Shown in pieces: positions 48,185 through 61,297 of a stretch of 64,000 nt of DNA. Both the position numbers and the translations under genes were made by a program. Source of the stretch: Trichocoleus sp. Lineage in GTDB: Bacteria; Cyanobacteriota; Cyanobacteriia; Elainellales; Elainellaceae. The notes below the pieces were generated by a model. That model made no database searches and was not told the DNA's origin. It saw only the letters and a program-made list of their open reading frames with translations. Location of the stretch: contig DATNQD010000059.1 in the NCBI GenBank assembly GCA_036702865.1, positions 124,001 to 188,000 on the forward strand, in the 5' to 3' direction. Each line of letters opens with the position of its first letter. Position 1 is the first letter of the stretch.

Positions 48185-49711
48185 CTAGAATAGCCTGGAC
48201 AGCAATTTATAAATCAGGCGGAACCAGATCGCAATGACGATCGCCCCTAAAGCAGTCAATCCGGCTATCACCAGAACGGTTTGCAGAGGACCCCCTAAAA
48301 GAGCAACAATCTTTTGCAGCAACGGTAGCGCCGTTAGAATGTATCGAAGTTGGCCAATGAATAAGACGGCTGCGAAGGTTGCGCCTGCAATTAAAAGCAG
48401 ATCAACCCGCTCGATCCAGCGCCGCCACTGGGCAAAGATAAGCGCTGCCATTCCAGCAGACAGCACGACCCAAAAAGATTGAATTGAACCAATGGTTGCG
48501 AGAAGACTGGCAAAGCCGATCGCCAAGAGTCCCCCTTCAAATCCTGTAAACGCGGCATTATAAAGCAGTTCCAAGGTTGAGATAGGCGGACGAACGGGTT
48601 TGAGCGTTCCAGCAGGTTGAGGGCTAGGAGGTTGAGGGCTAGGAGGTTGAGGGCTAGGAATCTGTGGTGGTGGCTGTAGGGCGGTTCCTTTTGCTGGACT
48701 AGCCGATCGCTGTGGCGTTGCTGCTGGTGCAGGCGTTGGGGGTGGAACTGGCTTCGCAGCAGGTTTAAGCGCTGCAAGCACTTCAGTTGCAGATTGGAAT
48801 CGCTGCATGGGGGAAGGTAGCAGCATCCGATTGATAACAGCTTCTAGACGATCGTCCACCTGAGCATAAGCCCGCCAGTTCCAGGTGTTGCTGTAGGCGT
48901 CGTAAAGGTCTTGAGGTTGTTTCCCCGTCAGCAGCATGAGACAAGTGACTGCCAGAGCATAAAGGTCAGTTGCCGGATAGACCACATCGCCTTGCATCTG
49001 CTCAGGTGGCGCAAACCCGAGCGAATAAATGCCAGTGGAAGCATTTTTACCACCCTGACCCGGACGACTAGACGCAACTTGCTTGACGGCACCAAAATCT
49101 AGGAGAAAGAGCAAGCCATCCCGTCGCCGCATAATGTTAGAGGGCTTGATGTCCCGGTGGATTGAACCATGGTCATGGACAAATTGCAGCACAGGCAGAA
49201 TCCGCTCCAGGAGTTCCAGCACTTTTGCTTCTGAAAAATGCCCCTGCTGCTCCAGTTCTTCTTCTAGGTTGTGTCCGTCAATAAACTCTTGAACCAGATA
49301 AAAAAACTGGTCGGGCTGTCCGGGAAGTGGTCGGGCGATGGGTAGAGCAAAAAAAGCCAGTAGATCAGGAATTTGAGGATGGGTTCCCAGTTCTTCTAAA
49401 ACCTGTCCTTCGCGTTCAAATAAGTTCTGGGCAATTTCTAGCTGATCCGGTGTGAGGTGGCTGGAGGGCTGAAACTGTTTGACCACGCACTGACGCATCG
49501 CAGGTGTATATCGATCGCGTGCCAGAAATGCTGCCCCAAAACCACCACGACCCAGGAGCTTGAGGGGAATGTAGCGACCTGCAAGAATCAGCTCCATGCC
49601 ACAGGCAGTGCAATACTTTTGCTGAATTGTTCTAAGCGTATTTGCCTGATCGAGATCAGCAAACGAATTAAGCGGACGCAGGCAACTAGGACGGGTGCAA
49701 TACACTTCCAT
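48185..49711 (-). CDS. Ser/Thr protein kinase with N-terminal Cys4 and C-terminal membrane helices
   Basis: 508 residues. A zinc-ribbon-like set (Cys5, Cys10, Cys34, Cys37) precedes a kinase domain at about 46-310: glycine loop LLGRGGFGAAF, Lys78 in VVKQF, HRDIKPSN (185-192), DFG (205-207). A Pro-rich linker contains the repeat SPQPP three times, and the C-terminus has about four hydrophobic helices, so the kinase faces the cytosol from the membrane. No PASTA or PBP-type sensor is seen. Its minus-strand downstream neighbour is the substrate-binding protein, possibly its ligand sensor; that is inference. Confidence 0.9.
   Translation of the reverse strand: MEVYCTRPSCLRPLNSFADLDQANTLRTIQQKYCTACGMELILAGRYIPLKLLGRGGFGAAFLARDRYTPAMRQCVVKQFQPSSHLTPDQLEIAQNLFEREGQVLEELGTHPQIPDLLAFFALPIARPLPGQPDQFFYLVQEFIDGHNLEEELEQQGHFSEAKVLELLERILPVLQFVHDHGSIHRDIKPSNIMRRRDGLLFLLDFGAVKQVASSRPGQGGKNASTGIYSLGFAPPEQMQGDVVYPATDLYALAVTCLMLLTGKQPQDLYDAYSNTWNWRAYAQVDDRLEAVINRMLLPSPMQRFQSATEVLAALKPAAKPVPPPTPAPAATPQRSASPAKGTALQPPPQIPSPQPPSPQPPSPQPAGTLKPVRPPISTLELLYNAAFTGFEGGLLAIGFASLLATIGSIQSFWVVLSAGMAALIFAQWRRWIERVDLLLIAGATFAAVLFIGQLRYILTALPLLQKIVALLGGPLQTVLVIAGLTALGAIVIAIWFRLIYKLLSRLF
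48615..48659 (-). repeat. 15-bp coding tandem repeat in the kinase linker
   Basis: Plus-strand unit GGTTGAGGGCTAGGA occurs three times in tandem (48615-48629, 48630-48644, 48645-48659), perfectly. On the coding strand it gives the repeated pentapeptide SPQPP, keeping the frame. Copy number is likely to vary between strains. Confidence 0.9.
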
Positions 49712-49741
49712 AGTCCTTATTCCTCACGCCTGCAGTGCTGT

Positions 49742-50776
49742 CTAGTCTTCAATTTGCACAACCTTACCCACCGTTGCTTCCAGAGGGAGGGAGCTAGAAT
49801 GTTCCCCGATCGCCTTTTCCACAGATTTTTTCACTGCATCTTCCGGCGAAGGTTGGTAGGTTGAAAACTGGGGCAAAATTTCTTCTGTGAAGGCTTCCGC
49901 CGCTTTGGAGCGATAGCGGTTTGGATTTGTAATGACAGAGAGAGTGCGATTGACAACGACGCCTTCGATCGGAGAACGATGCAATACCCCAAGTTGAAGC
50001 TCTTTTTCGATCGCAGAAATGGAGACAAAAGCGGCCCCCAACCCAGACTGCACCGCGTTTTTAATTGCCTCGATTGTATTTAGCTCCATCTCAATTTTCA
50101 GCCGTCTGGTTTCAATGCCACAGCGCGTCAAAACCTGATCAATCACTTTGCGAATGGTGGACTGCGAGTCCAGCGCAATAAACTGTAGCTTGTACAGGTC
50201 ATCTCGTTCGATCTGCTGTGTCCTTGCTAGAGGATGAAAAACAGGCAAGATCAGTGCCAGTTCGTCTTCTGCGTAGGGCACAACATCTAACGAATCCTGA
50301 AGTTCTGGTGGCACTTCTCCCCCAATGATTGCCAGGTCGATTTGTCCGTTTGCTACACTCCAGGCAGTCCGACGGGTCGAGTGGACATGAAGCTGCACCG
50401 CGACTTCAGGATACTGCTGCCGGAACAAGCCCAGCATTCGGGGGAGCAGATAAGTTCCGGTTGTCTGGCTAGCGCCCACAATCAAGGTTCCGCCCTGGAG
50501 GTTTTGCAGGTCTTCGATCGCCCGACAAGTTTCCTGACAGAGGCTCAAAATCCGATCGCCGTAGCTCAACAGAAGATGACCGGCTTCAGTTAATTGGGCA
50601 CGTCTGCCACCTCGATCAAACAGAGGCACGTCTAGCTGCCGCTCCAGGTTTTGCACCTGCAAACTGACGGCGGGCTGAGAAACATAAAGGCTGTCGGCAG
50701 CACGCTTAAAGCTTCCCTCGGCGGCAATAGCTTTAAGAATGCGTAACTGATCCAGAGTAAAAGGAAGATCAGACAT
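49742..50776 (-). CDS. rbcR: LysR-type regulator RbcR (Ycf30)
   Basis: 344 residues. The N-terminal winged helix ([37 protein letters not shown]) and the effector part ([51 protein letters not shown]) are almost diagnostic of the RbcR/Ycf30 group. RbcR activates Rubisco and CO2-related genes and responds to carbon metabolites. The last ~40 residues are a variable acidic extension. The promoter region to the right (50777-51363) is shared with the plus-strand cluster. Confidence 0.93.
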
Positions 50777-51363
50777 AGCTGCTAAATCTAGAAGAAGAAA
50801 GCCTGAAGAGTCAACGAGTGAAATAGGGGCTTGAAACAGGAGTGATAAATAAAAGACTCATCAAAAGTCTAAATGGAAAGAGTCTCTCTGAGAAGCAGTA
50901 TCTTGTAGCAACAGAACAAGTCGGACTTACCGGATCTATAGGGATATCAAGAGATTTCAGGATGACGCGTCGATCGAGAAATCTGGGAACCATAATAAGG
51001 TAAGTAGAACATTCAGATAGATAGGATGCAAATCAGTATCCGTCTTCTGAATGCTTTGCCTAGGTAGATTGCCCATCTATACCGCTATTTGGATCTGCCC
51101 TTATACTGGCATACTCAGGGGTAGCATCGCTCATGTAGGTTGAGATATGAATGCTAGATGTGGATAACCTGCTGCTAGCGTACACCACCTCGGTCACAGT
51201 CAGGTGAGCATCATGGAATCCTCTGCCAACCATAGATAAAACAGAAGCCTTAGAAAGGATTTATTTCCTGGGCATGGATGACGGAAAACCGCTCTCCTTA
51301 TCTTTATTCTGGATTGGGTGAATTGCCCAAAAGTTCTTAATTAAGCTCTTAAAGCATCTGTTT
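50777..51363. other. Divergent intergenic region, 587 bases
   Basis: Between rbcR (left) and the Roadblock-like gene (right). It contains an 8-bp inverted repeat CATTCAGA / TCTGAATG at 51010-51017 and 51046-51053, and one isolated DnaA-box sequence TGTGGATAA at 51159-51167. No gene or RNA is supported. It must carry the rbcR promoter and the promoter of the photosystem-related cluster. Confidence 0.5.
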
Positions 51364-52224
51364 ATGAAGCGGGAGGTTGTCCAAGACTTTTTGAATCTAC
51401 CGGGAATTGTGGGAGTTGCATTGATGGATGGGCGCTCTCGCCCGTACTTTTGCGGTGTTGACCAAACGCTAAACTTTCAGCAAAAAGAAGCTTTGGCTCA
51501 AGGAATTCAGCAAGTCATCGACACAACGCCTGCCAACTTTAAGTTTTTTGAGTTTCAGTTTACGGGGCATCAGGTCTATATCTACAAATTAGACCACGGC
51601 ATTATTTTGCTAGTCTTGGCCGCCAGTACGCTGGCTTATACAACTTATACAGAATCGGTCGATCGACTGAAAGCAGAACTGCAAGAAGACATTGCCAATG
51701 CAATTGCTACCTTTCGCCTGCTTGCAGGAAACACAACACTCTCCGGGCAAAATTACTGGAAACGACAGCCCGACGGAACCTCTACCACCAGCAACAGGCG
51801 ATCGGGCTTTGCTCCTGAGTCTACTGAGATTCCTTCACAGCCTCCTCAACTGCCGACTCATCCCCCTCCTACATCACCACTAGCCTCCTCACCAACGCTT
51901 AAAGACATGTTGGCAGCGATGAATGAACTCAGTAAGTTCACAACCCAATACTTGGGTGCAACAGTGGTGACAAACTATTGGAAAACGACCCGTCCATCAA
52001 TTGACTGGCTCAATCAGTTTGAAGTCGAACGCTCTGCTCAAATTAGCCCCCCAACTCAGATTCCAGGTACAACAAAGCTAACGGACGACCAGCAGCAGTG
52101 GATTCGAACATGGGTTGATGCATTTATTCAACGGTGTTCCAAGGTGATTCGAGACTTTCCTAAATCTGTACGGCAAAAGCTCCCTGATCACCAAAAATTC
52201 CTCTTGTTTAATGAAGCTTCCTAA
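51364..52224 (+). CDS. Roadblock/LC7-like protein, first gene of the V4R cluster
   Basis: 286 residues. The N-terminal ~95 residues (FLNLPGIVGVALMDGRSRPYFCGVD, then QGIQQVIDT, FEFQFTGHQVYIYKLDHGIILLVL) resemble a Roadblock/LC7 or profilin-like alpha/beta domain. A Ser/Pro/Thr-rich linker (about 140-185) follows, then a helical C-terminal domain with TQYLGATVVTNYWKTTRPS and FIQRCSKVIRDFPKSV. Conserved in cyanobacteria as an uncharacterised protein. It begins an operon with the ferredoxin gene 38 bases later; I infer that it serves as a scaffold or regulator. Confidence 0.65.
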   Translation: MKREVVQDFLNLPGIVGVALMDGRSRPYFCGVDQTLNFQQKEALAQGIQQVIDTTPANFKFFEFQFTGHQVYIYKLDHGIILLVLAASTLAYTTYTESVDRLKAELQEDIANAIATFRLLAGNTTLSGQNYWKRQPDGTSTTSNRRSGFAPESTEIPSQPPQLPTHPPPTSPLASSPTLKDMLAAMNELSKFTTQYLGATVVTNYWKTTRPSIDWLNQFEVERSAQISPPTQIPGTTKLTDDQQQWIRTWVDAFIQRCSKVIRDFPKSVRQKLPDHQKFLLFNEAS

Positions 52225-52262
52225 ATTCACTTCAACTTTAATCTCTGGAGAACTTAACTTGA

Positions 52263-52748
52263 ATGGTTAAAACTGTCAGACTAGAACCGATCGCCCAAGA
52301 AACCGCAATTGAAACAAACGGTAATCTCCTGGCTGTTCTAATGAAGGAAGAGCTAGATGTGATGAAAGAATGTGGCGGTCGCGGTATGTGTGCAACCTGT
52401 CATGTCTATGTGAAAGAAGGCATGGAAGCCCTCTCCCCAGTGAACCGACGTGAACAGCGCACGTTAGAAGTGATTACGTCCTGTAAGCAGAATTCTCGTC
52501 TTGCTTGTCAGGCAAGGGTTTTAGCAAATGGCGTCACGGTTGAACTACCGCCGGGGATGTACATTAACTCCATTAAAGATATTGAAGCGTTAATCGGACG
52601 ACGTGCTGAACAAAACCTGCTTCACCCGGTAACTGGACAAGTGCTGGTGGAGGAAGGAAAGCTGATTACTCGATCGGTTCTGAAACAGATTGAGGATACA
52701 ACTAACTTTCAGCTTGCTACGTTCTTCTCTCACAGTAGCGATATCTGA
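52263..52748 (+). CDS. 2Fe-2S ferredoxin-like protein
   Basis: 161 residues. The plant/adrenodoxin-type cluster ligands are Cys37, Cys43, Cys46 and Cys82 (pattern Cx5Cx2Cx35C, in ECGGRGMCATCH and RLACQAR). An extra Cys74 lies between them. The C-terminal ~60 residues after the fold (GRRAEQNLLHPVTGQVLVEEGKLI) extend beyond usual ferredoxins. The content matches the ferredoxin-like member (slr0148-like) of the Synechocystis slr0144-slr0152 set as I recall it. It is followed by a perfect terminator. Confidence 0.85.
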   Translation: MVKTVRLEPIAQETAIETNGNLLAVLMKEELDVMKECGGRGMCATCHVYVKEGMEALSPVNRREQRTLEVITSCKQNSRLACQARVLANGVTVELPPGMYINSIKDIEALIGRRAEQNLLHPVTGQVLVEEGKLITRSVLKQIEDTTNFQLATFFSHSSDI

Positions 52749-52785
52749 GTAGAAGTCTTTAGTAGATTAAAAGTAAAAAAATTGG

Positions 52786-52807
52786 GCAGGCTCAAAGCCT
52801 GCTTTTT
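52786..52807 (+). terminator. Rho-independent terminator after the ferredoxin gene
   Basis: Perfect 7-bp stem GCAGGCT / AGCCTGC (52786-52792 and 52796-52802), loop CAA, followed by TTTTT. It splits the cluster into two transcription units, or acts as an attenuator between them. Confidence 0.92.
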
Positions 52808-52929
52808 AATGCCTAATAGCTTGAGCTAAAGCTTGCAGAAGGCTCAAAAAGCTCGATCGTATCAAGTTATCAAGTTTGATGAAGTGGGTACTCTTAATAC
52901 AAGTTAATTATTTCGTGAGTCGTTGCAAT

Positions 52930-53406
52930 ATGCTGAGCCAAATGAATCGCTTAAGTTTGGAAACTGAGGGGCGCTATGCCACAGATGCAGAGTTGCAATT
53001 CATTATTGACTATGCTCAATCCTTTCCAATGCGACTGCAAACTTACCAAACGCTCCAAGAACTTGAATCATCCCTGGTCGAACAGACCCATACGAGGATG
53101 AAGGCGATCGCCCCACAGCAGTTTCAGTTTAGCTCTGGCGATATGAGTGCGAAATGGAAACGTGATACGGGGCGCGTCCTGCGTTATACGGCTGCGGCAG
53201 TTTTAATGAACGACTCTAATGCCCTACGCGAACGGTTTTTGCTTTGGTTTCAAACCATTATGCGGGCATTTGCTGCTCAGCAAAGCTGCAATCTCACGTA
53301 TCAAGTGATGCAAGAAGTTACTCTCCAACATCTCACTCCTCCACAAGTGAATTTGGTCAATCCTGTTTTGGAAATCAATCGTCGTTCTCTAGGCATGGCT
53401 GCATAA
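52930..53406 (+). CDS. Phycobilisome-like globin protein without bilin Cys (copy 1)
   Basis: The ATG at 52930 gives 158 residues (a TTG/ATG pair at 52876/52879 and an ATG at 52942 are alternatives). The globin-like core of phycobiliproteins is seen: GRYATDAELQFIIDYAQSF, then KRDTGRVLRYTAAAVLMNDSNALRERFL, which aligns with the CLRDMxYxLRYxTYAxxxGD helix pair. At the chromophore Cys position (Cys84 in phycocyanin) it has Trp76, so no covalent bilin is expected. The protein may bind pigment non-covalently or serve as a structural partner. Confidence 0.8.
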   Translation: MLSQMNRLSLETEGRYATDAELQFIIDYAQSFPMRLQTYQTLQELESSLVEQTHTRMKAIAPQQFQFSSGDMSAKWKRDTGRVLRYTAAAVLMNDSNALRERFLLWFQTIMRAFAAQQSCNLTYQVMQEVTLQHLTPPQVNLVNPVLEINRRSLGMAA

Positions 53407-54006
53407 ACTAAGCAGAATAATCACTTTGATAAAAATAGTTACAAAGGAGCAGGATAGGTTGCAGGAGCGTTGCTCGCTTGTTGCAGTCCACCCTGTTTCT
53501 TTTTGTTTTTGGTGCGCTTAAAAAATCAAAAAATGCTCATTCTTCTTGTAAGATTGCGATCGATTCAATCAGGATTAAATTGCAAGAGATTCACCGCGAG
53601 ACTGATGAAGTAAACCATTTTCTTGTTACAACTATTCACTTTTCTTCTTCAAAGTTCAAACTTAAACTTCGATCGGGTTGCTTTCAGCCAACCTTATGAT
53701 GATGTTAGATTCTACTCGCTTCAGGGAATCTTTGAATCTAGAAGCGACGAAGGTTGAAAAAGCCTCTAATGCCTTCCTGGAAGTGATGTGACAGAATCTG
53801 GGGCAATACGATTCATCTCATTGTTTTTGTAAACCTGTCTCTTCTACGATCGCTTTTCAACACTCTAGAATGTTGGCGCTCTCCCTTTGTTGCTGATGAA
53901 ACTTAGTCACTGACGAGCCTGTATCGGTTCGAGGCTACGATTCTTCAGTTCTGTGCCCCTTCCTCGTTCACTGCATATTATTCCGATATTTGGCAAGAGA
54001 AACATT
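53407..54006. other. Intergenic, 600 bases, inside the V4R cluster
   Basis: No supportable gene. It holds TTT-rich stretches after a stem-like region at about 53456-53490 (weak) and a 7-bp stem TCGCTTC / GAAGCGA at 53716-53722 and 53741-53747. Such a long gap in a compact cluster suggests a second promoter, a regulatory leader or an sRNA for the V4R gene. Confidence 0.4.
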
Positions 54007-54690
54007 ATGGTGATTGCAATTGATACCCCAAACCCTATAAAACGCAAATTTCCGAAAAAGCACAATCATTATGGGTTTCGTGACTTCTTCCACTTTGATG
54101 CTGATAAGGGCAACATCATCGACTGGAATGACAGCCTCAACATTCTTACAACTGAAGACTTTATCATTGGTTTGGTTGAAGGGTTAGAGGAAGAAGTAGG
54201 GGATGCATCTGCTGCCACAATGTATACGATCGGCTGCGAATGGGGTCAAAAAGACGCTTTCTTCTTTGAGAAGTGGTTTGAGAAAGAGTTCGATCGCGGT
54301 GTTCGCCAAACCAATCTCTTGTTTCTGCTCGAAACCTGGTGGTGGCCCTTCACCTCTCAAGGTTGGGGACGCTGGGAAGTCGATATGGGCGATCGAAAGC
54401 AGGGCTTTATGTTTATCAACATTTTTGATTCTGCGGTTGCCCGAACGCTTGGCGATGTCGGCAAACCTGTTTGTTTTCTTTATGCTGGGCTGTTCGCTGG
54501 ATTCTTTACAGAACTCGTGAAGAAACAGCTTAGCTGCATTGAAATTCAGTGCTACTCCATGGGTGAAACCTACTGTAAATTCTTACTGGGTGGGCAAGAC
54601 CGCATCGACGCGGCTTCCTTTTGGCTCAATGAGGGTGCAACGGCAAAGGATATTGAAAAGCGCTTGCGTTCTGGGGAGATGCTGCGATGA
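54007..54690 (+). CDS. V4R-domain protein (copy 1)
   Basis: The ATG at 54007 gives 227 residues; upstream frame continuation lacks similarity. The 4-vinyl-reductase (V4R) type domain covers most of the protein: EDFIIGLVEGLEEEVGDASAATMYTIGCEWG, VCFLYAGLFAGFFTELVKKQLSCIEIQCYSMGETYCKFLLGG with the conserved Cys pattern of the family. It is rich in Trp (ETWWWPFTSQGWGRWE), unusual for a small soluble protein. V4R domains occur in BchJ and in ligand-binding regulators. Its stop overlaps the next start (ATGA). Confidence 0.85.
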   Translation: MVIAIDTPNPIKRKFPKKHNHYGFRDFFHFDADKGNIIDWNDSLNILTTEDFIIGLVEGLEEEVGDASAATMYTIGCEWGQKDAFFFEKWFEKEFDRGVRQTNLLFLLETWWWPFTSQGWGRWEVDMGDRKQGFMFINIFDSAVARTLGDVGKPVCFLYAGLFAGFFTELVKKQLSCIEIQCYSMGETYCKFLLGGQDRIDAASFWLNEGATAKDIEKRLRSGEMLR

Positions 54691-54998
54691 CTGCTGTTTT
54701 AATGCATACCAATGGCTCCAGTGCCCAGGCTCCTAAAACCTGGATGACCGACTCTGTTCAAGACTTTTTCACTGCCTTTAACTGGGAAGATCACTCGCCT
54801 GAAGTGCAGGAACTCAAACGGTCTAGCCTGGAAGCGATCGACAACAAACCGTTTTGGCTCACCCTATCAGTCAGTCAATTCCTCAGCACGATCGATTGGG
54901 ACGGTAGCACGATTGCCGCAACTCCAAATCTAGAAACACCGCCTCAAGCAACTGGAGCAGATTCGCTCACGCTTGACGACTTCTCAGATCTGTTCTAG
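54687..54998 (+). CDS. Small protein with repeated F-W motif and acidic tail
   Basis: 103 residues, translationally coupled to the V4R gene by ATGA overlap. Two similar segments, VQDFFTAFNWE (24-34) and VSQFLSTIDWD (62-72), are joined by a polar helix, and the protein ends with SLTLDDFSDLF, a Phe-rich acidic tail. The pattern looks like a short linear binding module for a neighbour in the cluster. No family is recognised. Confidence 0.75.
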   Translation: MTAVLMHTNGSSAQAPKTWMTDSVQDFFTAFNWEDHSPEVQELKRSSLEAIDNKPFWLTLSVSQFLSTIDWDGSTIAATPNLETPPQATGADSLTLDDFSDLF

Positions 54999-55034
54999 GT
55001 TTCCAACCCCCAATCCCTAACCCCCTTCATCACT

Positions 55035-55529
55035 ATGCACCCACAAATTGACTCTATTTTTGACGATGCGGAAAACCGCTATCTCAAACCTGAAGAACTC
55101 AAGCTTGTCAGCCAATATGTTGAGTCTTTGCCAGAGCGGTTAGAAGCTTATCGCAGGCTGCGTGACCAGGAAGTTGAGATTATGCAGTGGGCAGCCGACC
55201 AGCTTCAAGCGGCAATGCCTCAAGAGAAACCTGAAATGCTAGAACGCAGTATTAAAAATGCGCTGCTAATGCTCCGTTACTGTGCAATGGGGATGTTGCT
55301 CAATGATGACAGCCTTGTCAAGGAACGCTACGTTGCTTGGATTCACGACATGAATCAGGTCTACAACACGAGCGCGATCGACAGTACCCTCAGTCAATAC
55401 CTTAACCAGCGGCTTAATCAGGTTTTGGGAGCGAAAGCTATGAGTTTGCTCCGACCGATGATTGCGCTTGCTCAAGGTGAACTGGCTCAACCCGAATCGA
55501 TGAATGGCATGGCAACGATCGGTTGGTAG
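55035..55529 (+). CDS. Phycobilisome-like globin protein without bilin Cys (copy 2)
   Basis: 164 residues. The helix pair IKNALLMLRYCAMGMLLNDDSLVKERYV matches the phycobiliprotein LRYxTYA...GD core; the position of the bilin Cys is Ser72. The N-terminal helix (IFDDAENRYLKPEELKLVSQYVESLPERLEAYRRL) matches the phycobiliprotein helix X region. It is probably a paralog of copy 1, diverged in its C-terminal helix. It lies 36 bases downstream of the small repeat protein. Confidence 0.8.
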   Translation: MHPQIDSIFDDAENRYLKPEELKLVSQYVESLPERLEAYRRLRDQEVEIMQWAADQLQAAMPQEKPEMLERSIKNALLMLRYCAMGMLLNDDSLVKERYVAWIHDMNQVYNTSAIDSTLSQYLNQRLNQVLGAKAMSLLRPMIALAQGELAQPESMNGMATIGW

Positions 55530-55595
55530 TATCCTCCGCTTCAGACAAACCATCCCTCATTACTTCATCCCTCATCCTTCAATCATTTCTGTCCT

Positions 55596-56249
55596 ATGAT
55601 TTCCGTTGCAGATTTACTCATTAATAATCGGATTCCGGGCAATTATTTCACTCCCGATGTCTATGTACGGGGCGATCTGGAGATGGGTTTACTGGAAAAC
55701 CGCCAGGGCGATCGTCTCCTTGCATTACCCGAAACGCTGGTTCAAGCAATCTATTCTGGTCTAGAAAAAGAAACTGGACAGGCTGCGCGTCTAGTCTTGT
55801 TTAACTGCGGTCGCTGGTGGGGCAAGAGCTTTTATACTCGCTTCTGTGAGCAGTTGACTGACTACTATGAAACGCCCCCAGCAAGCATGGCGATGATTGA
55901 ATTTCTTAAGTGCTTGCAGCAGTGCTGGATTACACATGGCTGGGGCAAGCTCGAACTTGATCAGACCTATCAAAATCGTGGCTTTTTAGTCGTGAAGGTT
56001 TGGAATTCACCCTTTGCCAAGCTCGCACCCCGACTTAAGCAGCCTGCTTGTTTTCTGGAGGCTGGGGTTCTCTCTGCTTTTTTCAGCCAATTGACAGGAA
56101 GAGAATTACACTGTATTCAGACAACTTGTGAATCGATGGGAGCCGACTGCAATCGGTTTGTGTTGGGCTTGCCTAAGCGGATCGAGCCTGCTGAAACAAT
56201 GGTGACAAACCTCGAACACGATTCCATCATGCAGCAACTTTGCAAGTAA
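55596..56249 (+). CDS. V4R-domain protein (copy 2)
   Basis: 217 residues. V4R-type domain: VQAIYSGLEKETGQAARLVLFNCGRWWG, then FLEAGVLSAFFSQLTGRELHCIQTTCESMGADCNRFVLGLP with the conserved terminal Cys residues. N-terminal ISVADLLINNRIPGNYFTPDVYVRGDLEMGLLENR precedes the domain. It is clearly related to copy 1 but differs in the N-terminus and lacks the WWW segment. It lies 161 bases upstream of the kinase gene. Confidence 0.85.
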   Translation: MISVADLLINNRIPGNYFTPDVYVRGDLEMGLLENRQGDRLLALPETLVQAIYSGLEKETGQAARLVLFNCGRWWGKSFYTRFCEQLTDYYETPPASMAMIEFLKCLQQCWITHGWGKLELDQTYQNRGFLVVKVWNSPFAKLAPRLKQPACFLEAGVLSAFFSQLTGRELHCIQTTCESMGADCNRFVLGLPKRIEPAETMVTNLEHDSIMQQLCK

Positions 56250-56410
56250 GCTTTCTGCTTCAAGAGTGAGTCAACTTGTTGTCAGTTGAAGACAACCAGG
56301 ACGAATCTCGTCATGTTTTTGCTGCTTATGGACTGTCGATTCATCCCAGGCAACTGGCAGATTATCCCTAATAATTTGCAGTTGTTCAGCGTAGCGATGG
56401 CAAAGACACC

Positions 56411-58318
56411 GTGGTAAGCCAACTGGGAAGTGAACAAAAACGTTCTAAGTATCGTCTCCTGGGTCTGGTTGGGCAGGGGCAGTTTGGGCGGGTCTATTGT
56501 GCTGCTCAGCGGCAGACTGGACGGCTCGTTGCCTTGAAAGACCTCGATCGCCAACGCTTTCCAACCCATAAATTCCTCAGGGAGTTACGCTTTCTTCTCA
56601 GGCTGCAACATCCCAATATCGTTACGTTTCAGTCTATTGAGCATACTGCAACTGGGCGATATTTGGTCATGGACTATTGCGAAGGAGGAACGCTGCGTAG
56701 TCTCATGCCAGAAGATGGTGGCTTGAACCTGCCGCAAAGTCTGAAGCTGGTTGCCGATATTCTAATGGGGTTGGATCATGCTCATCAACGCGATATCGTT
56801 CATTGTGATATTAAGCCGGAGAATATCCTCCTTAGCGTAACCGCTACAAGCTGGACGGCTCGCATTTCTGATTTTGGGATCGCGCGGCTCAGCCAGGAAA
56901 TGTCTGACGAGGATATGGGGAATACAGGTTCGCCTGCATATATGGCACCAGAACGGTTCTACGGGCAGTATTCTCCTACTTCCGATCTTTACTCCGTGGG
57001 AATTCTGCTCTACGAATTGCTGGCTGGATATCGCCCTTTCTCTGGTACGCCAGCAGAGCTAATGTCTGCTCATTTGAATCGTCCGGTTAAGTTTCCGGAG
57101 ACAATCCCAGAACTCTGGCGACCCTTGATTAGTACGGCTTTACAAAAGCTATCGGCCAGACGGTTTCGATCGGCGAAAGAAATGCTTGCAGCGCTGTTAG
57201 CAGTTGCAGCGACAGAAGGATCTGCTTCTTGGCTCGATCCACGAACGGTTCATCTCCCCTTACTGCGGTCTGCAATGATACCTTGCTCCACTGCATTCAA
57301 GTCTCAGCAGCAAGAAGTTCTCCGTTATCCTCTCTCTCAATTGGCTGTCGCCACTCAAGCGCAAGAAACTTACTGCTATCGGGCAGAGCGTCAAGAAGTC
57401 ACATTTCAGGTCTATCCGACTGCTGCCTTACATGATCACCCTTTCCCTTCAGAGATCTGGCATACTGCTGCACTAAAGTCGCCTATTCGAGAACTGTTGC
57501 CCCGTCCCCAAGGCTGTTTTGTGCTGACAGATCAATCTCTGCATCTGCTCCCTATCGGAATGGAGTCTGACCCTAACCTGACCCTTCAGCGAATCTTGGT
57601 ACTGGAGCCAGAGAGCCTTGTCGCAATTGAAGCCAAGGGACGTTGGATGGCATCGCTCACTCCAACCGATAAGAAGGACGAAAGCTTATTAACGTTCCAG
57701 CGTCTCCTCAGTTGCAACACTCAAATCACAATCGCTTCCCATCCGCTTAATCTGTCTCTAAAATGGCGATCGCCTCAAACTCCAGCCCTATATGCACTGG
57801 ATGCTCACCATGTTGCTGTATTGATCGATCGATTAGATCAGCTGCCGGATGGTTTAAATGAGCCAACTTTGAGCCGCAATAAAAAATCAAGTACTGGAAC
57901 ACTTATCGAAATTTTATGTCGGCGAGGTAAGCGGATCGGTTCATTGATTCTGCCGCTCCACCTTGGCAAAACCATCCTTACCTCAATTCCTTATCGGCTG
58001 TTAGCAGTCGATCGAGAAAACCCTTATTGTGTTTTGCTTATTGATCTCAAGCCCTATCGTCTTCTCCGGCTTGGTATCGAAATTGTCCCGACTTTGCTCG
58101 CTGTCTCCTCATGGGGATATCTTTTAGCCAGTGAGCAAGGAGAAATTGTTTTACTGGATCAAATAGGGCAGAAAGTAGGCTGTATTACTGGTCTAGGTCG
58201 TATTACGGCAATGGCGCCACTCAATCAGCATCAAATTGCTGTTGCAACCTGGGATGGCACAACAGGCAACTTGTACACTATTGACTTGCGAGAAGCGGGC
58301 GTAGACCTGCTGTTTTAA
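56411..58318 (+). CDS. Ser/Thr protein kinase with C-terminal propeller-like region (SpkG-like)
   Basis: 635 residues from a GTG. Kinase domain about 14-265: glycine loop GQGQFG (21-26), Lys43, HCDIKPEN with Asp133 (HRD replaced by HCD), DFG (154-156), APE (179-181). The C-terminal ~350 residues lack a transmembrane segment and contain repeated beta-rich blocks (SPIRELLPRPQGCFVLTD, LAVSSWGYLLASEQGEIVLLD, TAMAPLNQHQIAVATWDG), as in a WD/propeller-like fold. In Synechocystis the kinase SpkG (slr0152) closes the corresponding cluster; I infer the same role here. The HCD form suggests a weaker catalytic loop than HRD but is tolerated in some kinases. Confidence 0.85.
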   Translation: MVSQLGSEQKRSKYRLLGLVGQGQFGRVYCAAQRQTGRLVALKDLDRQRFPTHKFLRELRFLLRLQHPNIVTFQSIEHTATGRYLVMDYCEGGTLRSLMPEDGGLNLPQSLKLVADILMGLDHAHQRDIVHCDIKPENILLSVTATSWTARISDFGIARLSQEMSDEDMGNTGSPAYMAPERFYGQYSPTSDLYSVGILLYELLAGYRPFSGTPAELMSAHLNRPVKFPETIPELWRPLISTALQKLSARRFRSAKEMLAALLAVAATEGSASWLDPRTVHLPLLRSAMIPCSTAFKSQQQEVLRYPLSQLAVATQAQETYCYRAERQEVTFQVYPTAALHDHPFPSEIWHTAALKSPIRELLPRPQGCFVLTDQSLHLLPIGMESDPNLTLQRILVLEPESLVAIEAKGRWMASLTPTDKKDESLLTFQRLLSCNTQITIASHPLNLSLKWRSPQTPALYALDAHHVAVLIDRLDQLPDGLNEPTLSRNKKSSTGTLIEILCRRGKRIGSLILPLHLGKTILTSIPYRLLAVDRENPYCVLLIDLKPYRLLRLGIEIVPTLLAVSSWGYLLASEQGEIVLLDQIGQKVGCITGLGRITAMAPLNQHQIAVATWDGTTGNLYTIDLREAGVDLLF

Positions 58319-58387
58319 GCCTGACTGCGCCCCTTGCCTCAGCCTTGAGGGTTACTAAACAAATCAAAAAGCAAAGCACCTTCTAGC

Positions 58388-58753
58388 TCAGGCAGAAGCA
58401 GAGTAAGAATGGCAGGGAAGGATATGGAGCAGGGTCGATCGCAGATCAGTGGCAGCAGTGTGAAGATCATCTCTGTTGCGAAAGCGTTCTAGCCGACAGA
58501 GAATAGTTTCCTGGTTAAACAAAAAGACGGTGGGTAGGGTCTTCAGTTTGTAAGCGTTTGATAACTTTAAATTCTCGTCAGCATTGATGCTTACAAGCTT
58601 GATCTGATCGCTCCACTCCGTTTGGATCTCAACGAGGAGGGGATCAATCATCCGACAGATCCCACACCAGGGTGCCCAAAAGTTCACCAGGACGGGAGTT
58701 GTAGAGCTTAAAACTTCTTGATTAAATGTGAATTGATTAACGGCTAACACCAT
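58388..58753 (-). CDS. Thioredoxin-fold protein with CGIC active site
   Basis: The ATG at 58751-58753 gives 121 residues; a GTG three codons upstream is possible. Active site WAPWCGIC (Cys30 and Cys33) instead of the classical CGPC, with NFWAPWC and LKTLPTVFLFN (cis-Pro in TLPT) of the thioredoxin fold. The CGIC pair probably shifts the redox potential. It is 45 bases downstream of the Z-ISO-like gene on the same strand; a link to isomerase redox state is possible but inferred. Confidence 0.88.
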   Translation of the reverse strand: MVLAVNQFTFNQEVLSSTTPVLVNFWAPWCGICRMIDPLLVEIQTEWSDQIKLVSINADENLKLSNAYKLKTLPTVFLFNQETILCRLERFRNRDDLHTAATDLRSTLLHILPCHSYSASA

Positions 58754-58798
58754 TTTGCCCACTGCCTCTATTGTGTTCGATGAGCCTTTGGGATCATG

Positions 58799-59512
58799 CT
58801 ACCAGCGTACGTTACCTGTTGCGCTGATCAATAGTGGGTGAATTACCCAAAAAATGACGATAAACCCGACAACCCCCAAGTAGGCAGGTTTAAAGAACTC
58901 CTTAAAAACGAGCGTTTGTCGTCCTTGGAGAATTGCCAGGAACGGGATAACCGAAGTTCGTTCCTTGACGACTGTAAACGCTTCTCCATAACGAGCCTGC
59001 AAACGTCGATCGCCATGCCATACCGCGAACAAGTGATGCAGGATCAAGCCTAAAGAGGTAACGACCATAAAACTTGTGCCCAACCACAAGAGGTGAGCAA
59101 TGCACCAAATGACCTGCCCAACCATTTGGGGATGGCGAGTAATGCGAATGATGCCCGTTTCATAGAGATGAACTTGCGGCTTCTGGATGGCTGCGATCTC
59201 CAGCAGGTTAAACGTTGCAGGATAAAGGAACAAAAAGGAAATGGCAGAGAGACTCCAGATGAGCGATTCGATCCCGGGAACACCCTGAAGATGCCAAAGC
59301 TGAAGTCCGTCGTAGCGGTGATTGATAAAATAAATAATTAAAACGGCAGCATAAGGCAGGCTTGCTAGGGCGAACACCACCCGATAAAGTCTTGCCCCAA
59401 TTCGCTTCTCACCCCAAGGACGCAAGGCTGCAAGCCCGCTGTGTACCACTGCAAATCCAAGCAGGAGCCCAAGAATTATAAAATGACTCGCTGTGAGCCA
59501 AGCATCCCCCAT
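58799..59512 (-). CDS. 15-cis-zeta-carotene isomerase-like protein (Z-ISO, NnrU family)
   Basis: 237 residues from the ATG at 59512, which has GAGG about ten bases upstream; the ATG three codons earlier has GAGG too close. About six membrane segments. Close match to plant Z-ISO: VHSGLAALRPWGEKRIG, IYFINHRYDGLQLWHLQGVPGIE, LYPATFNLLEIAAIQKPQVHLYETGIIRITRHPQMVGQ and LILHHLFAVWHGDRRLQARYGEAF. Plant Z-ISO is a heme protein with His ligands; His in VVHSGL and in HHLF are candidates here. It would isomerise the 15-cis bond of zeta-carotene, between phytoene desaturation steps. Confidence 0.9.
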   Translation of the reverse strand: MGDAWLTASHFIILGLLLGFAVVHSGLAALRPWGEKRIGARLYRVVFALASLPYAAVLIIYFINHRYDGLQLWHLQGVPGIESLIWSLSAISFLFLYPATFNLLEIAAIQKPQVHLYETGIIRITRHPQMVGQVIWCIAHLLWLGTSFMVVTSLGLILHHLFAVWHGDRRLQARYGEAFTVVKERTSVIPFLAILQGRQTLVFKEFFKPAYLGVVGFIVIFWVIHPLLISATGNVRW

Positions 59513-59676
59513 CACTTGCATACCTCATTGATCGTTTTTACTACCCCAAATATGGACTGTAGACGGATCGGGTGCTGGCTGTAAAGCTGAATTGTCTGCT
59601 CCAGGGGTTGCGGTTTTACCGCTTCTAATAGTACGATCATAAACTGTGTCAAATTCAGACAAACTGAAGGCAAGCT

Positions 59677-59874
59677 ATGCCCAAACTCAAGAGTCGGAAA
59701 GCTGCCGCCAAGCGTTTTCAGAAAACGGGCAGCGGGAAAATTATGCGCCGTAAGGCTTTCAAAAACCACCTGCTTCAGCATAAAAGTGCAACCCGGAAGC
59801 GTCGCATTAGCGGACTTGGACTCGTTAACGAGGGGGATGCTGAAAACGTACAGCTGATGCTTCCCTACATGTAG
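59677..59874 (+). CDS. rpmI: 50S ribosomal protein L35
   Basis: 65 residues, complete: [41 protein letters not shown]. Basic, as expected for an rRNA-binding protein. First gene of the L35-L20 pair; no infC is upstream in the window. A GGTTTTACC palindrome and AT-rich DNA lie within 65 bases upstream and may hold the promoter. Confidence 0.97.
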
Positions 59875-59890
59875 GGGGTATTGGTGCGTT

Positions 59891-59931
59891 AGGTTAAGGA
59901 TCACTGAAATTGTTCGATGATCCTTTAACCT
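59891..59931 (+). other. Stem-loop between rpmI and rplT
   Basis: AGGTTAAGGATCA (59891-59903) pairs with TGATCCTTTAACCT (59918-59931), 13 base pairs with one bulged T and a 14-base loop. No T-run follows. Location in the L35-L20 transcript fits an L20 autoregulatory site or RNA-processing signal; unproven here. Confidence 0.6.
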
Positions 59932-59986
59932 GAAATTTCAAAGCCATTGAACTCAATATTCCATTTGAACTGTAGGAAAACTTAGT

Positions 59987-60337
59987 ATGACACGGGTTAA
60001 ACGCGGCAATGTTGCTCGTAAACGCCGCAAAAAGATTCTAAAGCTGGCTAAAGGCTTTCGGGGTAGCCACTCTCGGTTATTCCGTACAGCCAACCAGCAG
60101 GTGATGAAGGCACTCCGCAATGCCTACCGCGATCGTCGCAAGCGCAAGCGTGATTTTCGTCGCCTTTGGATTGTGCGGATCAATGCAGCAGCTCGTCAGC
60201 ATGGAGTGAGCTACAGCAAGTTGATGGGTGCTCTGAAGAGAGCTGAAATTCAAATCAACCGGAAAATGCTGGCACAAATGGCAATTCTCGATCCAACCGG
60301 ATTTGGTAAAGTCGTTGAGCTGGCAAACCGAGCGTAA
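59987..60337 (+). CDS. rplT: 50S ribosomal protein L20
   Basis: 116 residues, complete: [56 protein letters not shown], and [22 protein letters not shown]20 binds 23S rRNA early in 50S assembly and in other bacteria represses its own operon. It follows rpmI by 112 bases with the stem-loop in between. Confidence 0.97.
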
Positions 60338-60412
60338 AATCTGTCTGATCGATCGCTGTCTAATTCCCAAGCCAATGATCCTGAACAGATCTTCTTAAGC
60401 CTGAGCAAGTGA

Positions 60413-61297
60413 TTGCTGAGGCAATATTTCTTTTCAGTGGAAATTTTTGTGTGGCGACAACTGGCGAAGATATTCAAGCATCGAATTCTAAGGCTTGCAT
60501 TCTGTTTTAGTCTTTTGGCGACGCTTTGGACAGCGATCCGGGTAGATGCGGTAGAGCTTTCAGGGATCAGGCAACGGGGCTATTTGGTGGTGGGTGTTAA
60601 AGATAATTTACGTCCACTGGGCTTTAAAAATGCTGCGGGTCAGCTAGAAGGGTTAGAAATTGATCTGGCTCACTGGTTAGCTCAATCCTTGTTAGGGGAC
60701 TCAGAGGCAGTTCAGTTTCAGCCTGTGGCAAACCGCGATCGATTGAATGCTTTACTAGAAGGCAAAGTTGATCTCGTCATTGCTCACTTAGGGCTAACAG
60801 AATCTCGCGCTCGTCTCGTTGATTTCAGTGATCCTTACTTTATCGACGGTACTGCTTTCATCACTGATAACAAAGAGATTCAAGCAATTCAGCAGCTACA
60901 AGGACAGCAAATTGCAGTTCTAAATGGCTCAGATACGATCGCCACTGTTCGATCGCTTATCCCTTCGGTGCAACTGGTGGGAGCTGATTCGTATGAGCAA
61001 GCAAAGACAGCCATTGAGCAGGGTAGGGTGACTGCATTTGCTGCTGACTTAACGGTTTTAACAGGTTGGGTGCAGGAATATCCTCAATATCATTTATTAC
61101 CAACTTTGCTTTCGGCTGAAGCGCTTGCTGTGGCGATGCCTAAAGGATTGCAGTTTGCTGAGCTGCGCCAACAGGTGAACCAATCGATCGCCCAATGGCA
61201 GGCGACAGGAAGGTTAAGAGGGCGAGTTCTTTACTGGAGCTTACCTGCTGATGGTGTCCCATCGCTTCATACAAGCCAGACAACCAGGATGCCGTAA
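60413..61297 (+). CDS. Extracellular solute-binding protein, family 3 (amino-acid type)
   Basis: 294 residues from a TTG; GTG at 60437 is an alternative and no ATG is available. Signal-like hydrophobic N-terminus (LRLAFCFSLLATLWTAI) precedes the domain: GIRQRGYLVVGVKDNLRPLGFKNAAGQLEGLEIDLAHWLAQ, VDLVIAHLGLTESRARLVDFSDPYF, and QQIAVLNGSDTIATVRSLIP, all of the SBP_bac_3 fold that binds polar amino acids. No ABC permease is adjacent. The next gene is a LysR regulator that could control it. Confidence 0.88.
   Translation: MLRQYFFSVEIFVWRQLAKIFKHRILRLAFCFSLLATLWTAIRVDAVELSGIRQRGYLVVGVKDNLRPLGFKNAAGQLEGLEIDLAHWLAQSLLGDSEAVQFQPVANRDRLNALLEGKVDLVIAHLGLTESRARLVDFSDPYFIDGTAFITDNKEIQAIQQLQGQQIAVLNGSDTIATVRSLIPSVQLVGADSYEQAKTAIEQGRVTAFAADLTVLTGWVQEYPQYHLLPTLLSAEALAVAMPKGLQFAELRQQVNQSIAQWQATGRLRGRVLYWSLPADGVPSLHTSQTTRMP

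Follow-up and report, generated by a model that had tools for sequence, protein, structure and literature searches.

A pap-type gene cluster of Trichocoleus sp. and its heterotroph relatives: a possible sensor module with its own Ser/Thr kinase

The slr0144-slr0152 (pap) cluster of Synechocystis has so far been studied almost solely as a photosystem II assembly operon; it has been tied to the assembly and repair of this photosystem (PMC4853703, PMC9145668, PMC13326532), and the proteins Slr0144-Slr0149 interact physically (PMC9880817). According to Rockwell et al. (2023), its core of Fe-S, V4R and globin proteins descends from heterotroph clusters that include bilin-making enzymes; the globins, named BBAGs, bind bilins in E. 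coli, their function being left undefined there, and the genes beside slr0144-slr0149, that of SpkG included, were set aside as often absent in cyanobacteria (PMC10151467). The cluster itself and its heterotroph ancestry are already published. Here, a copy of the cluster from Trichocoleus sp., located at 51364-58318 of a 64,000-nt stretch of contig DATNQD010000059.1 (the window), is compared with its relatives in other genomes. On balance, it is probable that the pap-type module was inherited from heterotrophic bacteria with its kinase included, most likely as a sensor complex, and was put to photosystem II use. The comparison adds the gene set of the window and its conservation, the co-inheritance of the kinase and its co-occurrence with V4R genes, the spacing of a putative metal site and the loss of the bilin Cys from the window globins. 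Neither this co-inheritance and co-occurrence, nor the family of a C-terminal domain (CTD), the asymmetry of the metal site or the Cys-less globin pair was found in the literature searched, most subscription journals lying outside it.

The cluster in Trichocoleus and in other genomes

The eight genes, all on the + strand, follow the order Roadblock-ferredoxin-G1-V4R1-U-G2-V4R2-SpkG. A first-pass annotation of the window had listed the same eight genes and families, and they were recovered at or near the places where it had put them:

51364-52224, +: Roadblock-CTD protein, 286 aa (AlphaFold2 model, PDB matches, shared CTD)
52263-52748, +: 2Fe-2S ferredoxin with a C-terminal extension, slr0148/Fd5 type (Pfam Fer2, E 2e-9)
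52786-52807, +: terminator-like hairpin (7-pair stem, 3-base loop, TTTTT)
52930-53406, +: phycobiliprotein-like globin G1, slr0149 type (Pfam Phycobilisome, 2e-19; alignments, tree)
54007-54690, +: V4R-1, slr0144 type, 227 aa (Pfam V4R, 6e-22; AlphaFold2)
54472-54576, +: putative metal site of V4R-1, C156, E179, C182 and C190 (C-x22-E-x2-C-x7-C)
54687-54998, +: slr0145-type motif protein U145, 103 aa (two motif copies)
55035-55529, +: globin G2, slr0146 type (Pfam Phycobilisome, 6e-12)
55596-56249, +: V4R-2, slr0147 type (Pfam V4R, 2e-17)
56411-58318, +: Ser/Thr kinase SpkG, 635 aa (Pfam Pkinase, 6e-51; trees, co-occurrence)

The window cluster is a full copy of the Synechocystis pap cluster, in line with the comparable content pointed out in the first-pass annotation: the V4R pair, the slr0145-type protein, two globins, the Fd5-type ferredoxin and SpkG are encoded together. 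No petF-like (slr0150) or TPR (slr0151) gene lies between 51364 and 58318, and a search of the genome returned generic TPR matches and no full-length relative of slr0151. Since other cyanobacteria also lack both genes, their absence is a variant feature.

Among the 386 Cyanobacteriota genomes sampled, 59 contain V4R genes. Across Cyanobacteriia and in several other phyla, V4R genes are repeatedly accompanied by this set of genes, which places the gene association above chance; the first-pass annotation had staked its reading on conservation of the neighbourhood among cyanobacteria, and the conservation found reaches beyond them. In a scan of 84,980 genomes, relatives of V4R-1 with 45-57% identity were found outside Cyanobacteriia, in Myxococcota, Planctomycetota, Verrucomicrobiota, Acidobacteriota, Sumerlaeota and Sericytochromatia, where the usual order is ferredoxin-V4R1-(U)-globin-V4R2-kinase on a single strand. 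Two main orders occur in cyanobacteria: that of the window, present also in loci L034, L040, L066 and L075, and the Synechocystis type, V4R1-U-G2-V4R2-ferredoxin-G1-petF-TPR-SpkG (L035 compared). The "altered parts" that had been ascribed to the window must be given up, as its order ferredoxin-V4R-U-globin-V4R-kinase matches that of the heterotrophs and it is the Synechocystis order that looks derived. The module shared with the pre-PcyA/BBAG clusters was found to include the kinase as well as U145 and the CTD protein.

Several variants of the cluster were encountered. L039, L064, L082, L087 and L088 contain a second, paralogous cluster devoid of the motif protein, in the order small ferredoxin, receiver-like/CTD protein, ferredoxin, V4R-1, unknown protein, globin with the bilin Cys and V4R-2. 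Small clusters in which one V4R-1 gene is joined by two genes for Cys-bearing G1 globins (L090:9394-11226, L091:8889-10631) occur in genomes that have a full cluster as well. The Pirellulaceae-type clusters (L124, L126, L128, L129, L131, L135) have neither a kinase nor a nearby ferredoxin gene; they encode a protein of ~800 residues with an N-terminal globin and one of ~380 residues with no Pfam match (L126:10702-11841). ParA/MinD-like ATPases are encoded near about 12 non-cyanobacterial clusters (e.g., L107:14211-15248, L115:14056-14868, L084:7032-7949).

Within the window, the terminator after the ferredoxin gene and the 600-base gap proposed by the first-pass annotation were both located. 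The hairpin scores on the - strand as well, and the gap downstream of it (53407-54006), ahead of V4R-1, is not a known RNA, since an Rfam scan of 49000-61000 returned zero families; a small open reading frame (ORF) within the gap was unsupported. Downstream of spkG, the regions 58388-59521 and 59677-60337 contain genes for a thioredoxin-like and an NnrU/Z-ISO-like protein, both on the - strand, and after them those for ribosomal proteins L35 and L20. These flanking genes (58388-60337) were judged ordinary by reading of their sequences.

The kinase SpkG and its ancestry

The kinase domain of SpkG (~56450-57184) is followed by a cyanobacteria-specific C-terminal region (~57197-58315). The window kinase groups with other cyanobacterial SpkG proteins with a tree support of 100, and its C-terminal region also matches theirs. 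Outside Cyanobacteriia, a kinase gene starting at most 1.5 kb 3' of V4R-2 is present in 27 of 37 clusters; among those remaining, one is ended by the contig end and two have a kinase elsewhere in the cluster. Of six such genomes, five have 58-134 kinases, or about one per 35-86 kb, whereas an Opitutales genome of 3.3 Mb has only 2, one of them inside the cluster.

A first tree set SpkG and the 27 cluster kinases against 24 further kinases encoded in the window genome and 18 drawn from the other genomes; 25 of the 27 join SpkG with a Shimodaira-Hasegawa-like approximate likelihood ratio test (SH-aLRT) support of 99. In a harder tree the background consisted of the 38 kinases that, within these genomes, come closest to SpkG: none of the 38 falls within the group of SpkG and cluster kinases (ultrafast bootstrap (UFBoot)/SH-aLRT 91/85). 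The best match of SpkG is the cluster kinase in four of six such genomes. These results suggest that the kinase is an old, ancestral part of the module.

The same picture emerges from the occurrence of SpkG in cyanobacteria. Its C-terminal tail is found in 41 of the 386 genomes, every one of them V4R-bearing, and in 0 of the 327 genomes free of V4R. In several V4R genomes SpkG is located far from the cluster, so linkage alone does not account for its tie to V4R genomes.

V4R proteins, globins and a candidate adaptor

The AlphaFold2 model of V4R-1 (predicted local distance difference test (pLDDT) 88) has its top PDB matches among the sensor domains of MopR, PoxR and DmpR (Foldseek E 3e-8 to 1e-6, template modelling (TM) score ~0.6, identity 16-20%), phenol sensors whose zinc ligands and phenol sites have been described (PMC7264223, PMC10715001). 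The C-x22-E-x2-C-x7-C spacing, whose counterpart in an alignment with MopR is the set of zinc ligands, is present in 135/135 V4R-1 sequences and in only 3/132 V4R-2 sequences (0/93 cyanobacterial, 3/39 other), the site in the window V4R-2 being degenerate. A putative metal site in V4R-1 and none in V4R-2 would thus form an asymmetry parallel to that of globins G1 and G2.

Both globins join the cluster globins in a tree (support 99), apart from the six phycobiliproteins of the same genome (98). The CxRD Cys by which light-harvesting phycobiliproteins attach bilin is kept by the genome's own ApcA/ApcB/CpcA/CpcB-type proteins and is present in neither window globin. In G1 its position is taken by Trp76 (53155-53157), with Arg and Asp retained (WKRD); G2 has neither the Cys nor the Arg-Asp pair, its Ser-Ile-Lys-Asn region being Cys-free. 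A covalent bilin on both window globins was ruled out by these missing Cys residues, and in this lineage the globins could bind a ligand only non-covalently. The bilin Cys, found in 0/51 G2 alignment rows, is present in G1 of many cyanobacteria. Its loss is repeated, other phyla included, and consequently a covalent bilin is not essential to the module everywhere; on the tree, the G1 sequences sampled take 5 changes, some of them perhaps reversals, which does not establish how many times G1 lost the Cys. G1 of L080, L065, L083 and L045 has KCRGD, as compared with KWRLD in close relatives bearing Trp, and may have regained the Cys. The ferredoxin pattern C-x5-C-x2-C...C is invariant in the family (100/100 members).

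The motif protein U145 carries two copies of SVxxF[FL]xxx[ND]W, SVQDFFTAFNW (54753-54785) and SVSQFLSTIDW (54867-54899), and its relatives have 1-4 copies of the [ST]VxxFFxxx[N]W type. The motif is nearly confined to this family: 89 of its ORFs carry it, compared with 2 outside the family among 2.2 million residues; shuffled sequence yielded 2. The motifs would tether several partners.

The protein encoded by the first gene consists of an N-terminal Roadblock/LC7 fold (~aa 1-120, 51364-51723), a disordered linker and a conserved CTD of ~105 residues (~aa 178-282, 51895-52209). Its designation as Roadblock-like in the first-pass annotation is backed by the predicted fold, which clearly matches MglB/Roadblock structures in the PDB (Z ~12; pLDDT 83), while the Pfam Roadblock score is sub-threshold (E 0.23). 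The PDB match list of the whole model was taken up by the Roadblock domain, and no Pfam model matches the CTD. The CTD recurs with other N-termini, namely pentapeptide repeats, a degenerate receiver domain and short helical segments; Synechocystis-type genomes have the pentapeptide version (L274, L275). Among the 386 genomes the CTD is found in 40 with V4R and, marginally, in 2 without it, often encoded at a distance from the cluster, and it also adjoins four myxobacterial-type clusters (L119, L121, L140, L144). Within a single genus (g18), genome G058 has both V4R and the CTD and genome G083 has neither. The Roadblock-CTD protein would be an exchangeable adaptor of the module.

Function of the module and comparison with known systems

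The occurrence of the cluster with its kinase in bacteria that do not carry out oxygenic photosynthesis means that photosystem II assembly was not its original job, and suggests that it began as a general device for sensing and signalling that cyanobacteria later used for photosynthesis. In such a complex the V4R pair and the globin pair would take up a small hydrophobic molecule or a tetrapyrrole as ligand, and the ferredoxin would bring or report the redox state. We infer that SpkG would be controlled by the V4R/globin/ferredoxin complex through its ligand and its redox state, just as we infer the ligand and the direction of signalling; SpkG would translate this state into phosphorylation, with the ferredoxin as one target, and in cyanobacteria this output would have been put to the assembly and repair of photosystem II. 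In Synechocystis the phosphorylation of Fd5 is SpkG-dependent (PMC11863333); taken with the interaction of Slr0144-Slr0149, this places the kinase and the ferredoxin in one pathway. A relay of pigment or ligand under kinase control, proposed in the first-pass annotation, is the less probable reading, a sensor whose output runs through the kinase being the better fit. A wider version, to which we give somewhat less than an even chance, is that of a hitherto unrecognised signalling system of at least six phyla, in which a complex of ferredoxin, V4R proteins with and without metal, bilin-type globin and a tether of several motifs would control a dedicated Ser/Thr kinase, an exchangeable Roadblock, pentapeptide or receiver-like adaptor being a further part; cyanobacteria would have inherited it along with their bilin biology and then linked it to photosystem II.

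Several points weigh against a sensor complex with an inherited kinase. The Pirellulaceae-type clusters among the 37 examined have no kinase, and the support separating the SpkG group from its closest kinases is moderate (91/85). The Fisher value for co-occurrence of the SpkG tail with V4R, 2e-41, is too small, the genomes being kin, and 13 of the 54 V4R-bearing Cyanobacteriia lack a match to the tail. The C-terminal region of SpkG, tried as a conserved sensor, was rejected in this role, as it is not conserved in other phyla, which gave one weak match. Kinase activity itself is unproven for Synechocystis SpkG (PMC11863333), and ligand binding, metal binding and kinase activity of the module are predictions.

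The alternative closest to the literature, and to the first-pass annotation, is a cluster dedicated to photosystem II assembly and repair, in which the V4R proteins and globins carry chlorophyll- or bilin-type pigments to intermediates of assembly and SpkG adjusts the process. Genetics and proteomics make this link in Synechocystis, the only organism for which it has been published (PMC4853703, PMC9145668), most Gloeobacterales lack V4R proteins (PMC13326532), and the conserved cyanobacterial copies are all in phototrophs. Nevertheless, this account is unlikely: the module with its kinase is present in Planctomycetota, Myxococcota and Verrucomicrobiota, the occurrence of V4R in only 59 of 386 Cyanobacteriota genomes makes it dispensable for photosystem II, and slr0151, which bears the most direct photosystem II evidence through its link to D1/CP43, is absent from the window cluster together with the extra petF, slr0150. 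Slightly less credit still is due to a cluster for bilin or tetrapyrrole metabolism, in which the ferredoxin supplies electrons to a reductase, intermediates are bound by the globins and the V4R proteins, and SpkG and the CTD protein act only as regulators or are passengers. Of the non-cyanobacterial loci, 28 have a heme oxygenase (HO) gene nearby and 17 a Fe_bilin_red-type gene, which speaks for the sensor reading as well, and BBAGs bind bilins in E. coli (PMC10151467); however, no HO or bilin reductase gene was found near the cyanobacterial clusters, the window included, the window and several other lineages have lost the bilin Cys, and the strict co-occurrence of SpkG and the CTD with V4R counts against passengers. 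Repeated independent recruitment of the kinase, with co-occurrence reflecting kinship only, has very little in its favour: the cluster kinases of L117 and L084 (12311-13849) do not join SpkG and Gemmataceae have an additional unrelated kinase upstream, but 25 of 27 lie in one group with SpkG, free of all 38 background kinases, and SpkG was retained in V4R genomes although moved from the cluster.

Should the kinase be original to a heterotroph sensor, the question would move from the pigment delivered to photosystem II to the signal sensed and the targets of SpkG. The CTD protein is a new candidate component in Synechocystis, where its gene is apart from the operon, and the contrast between the V4R-1 and V4R-2 metal sites specifies exact residues. 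The sensor reading also bears on the function of phycobiliprotein relatives before light harvesting.

Among described systems, the Synechocystis pap operon shares with the window the V4R pair, the motif protein, two globins, the Fd5-type ferredoxin and SpkG. The window differs from it in gene order, in the absence of slr0150 and slr0151 and in the adjoining Roadblock-CTD gene, and its G1 lacks the bilin Cys that the Synechocystis-type G1 keeps. With the pre-PcyA/BBAG clusters of heterotrophs it has in common the Fe-S protein, the V4R pair of two clades and the globin, whereas HO and bilin reductase are missing from the window cluster. MopR, PoxR and DmpR share with the window V4R-1 the fold and the Cys-Glu-Cys-Cys zinc spacing; their V4R domain is fused to a sigma54 activator, while V4R-1 is a separate protein. 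Roadblock/LC7 proteins such as MglB resemble the N-terminal fold of the first protein, but in the window this fold is fused to a conserved CTD and the cluster includes no gene for an MglA-type GTPase.

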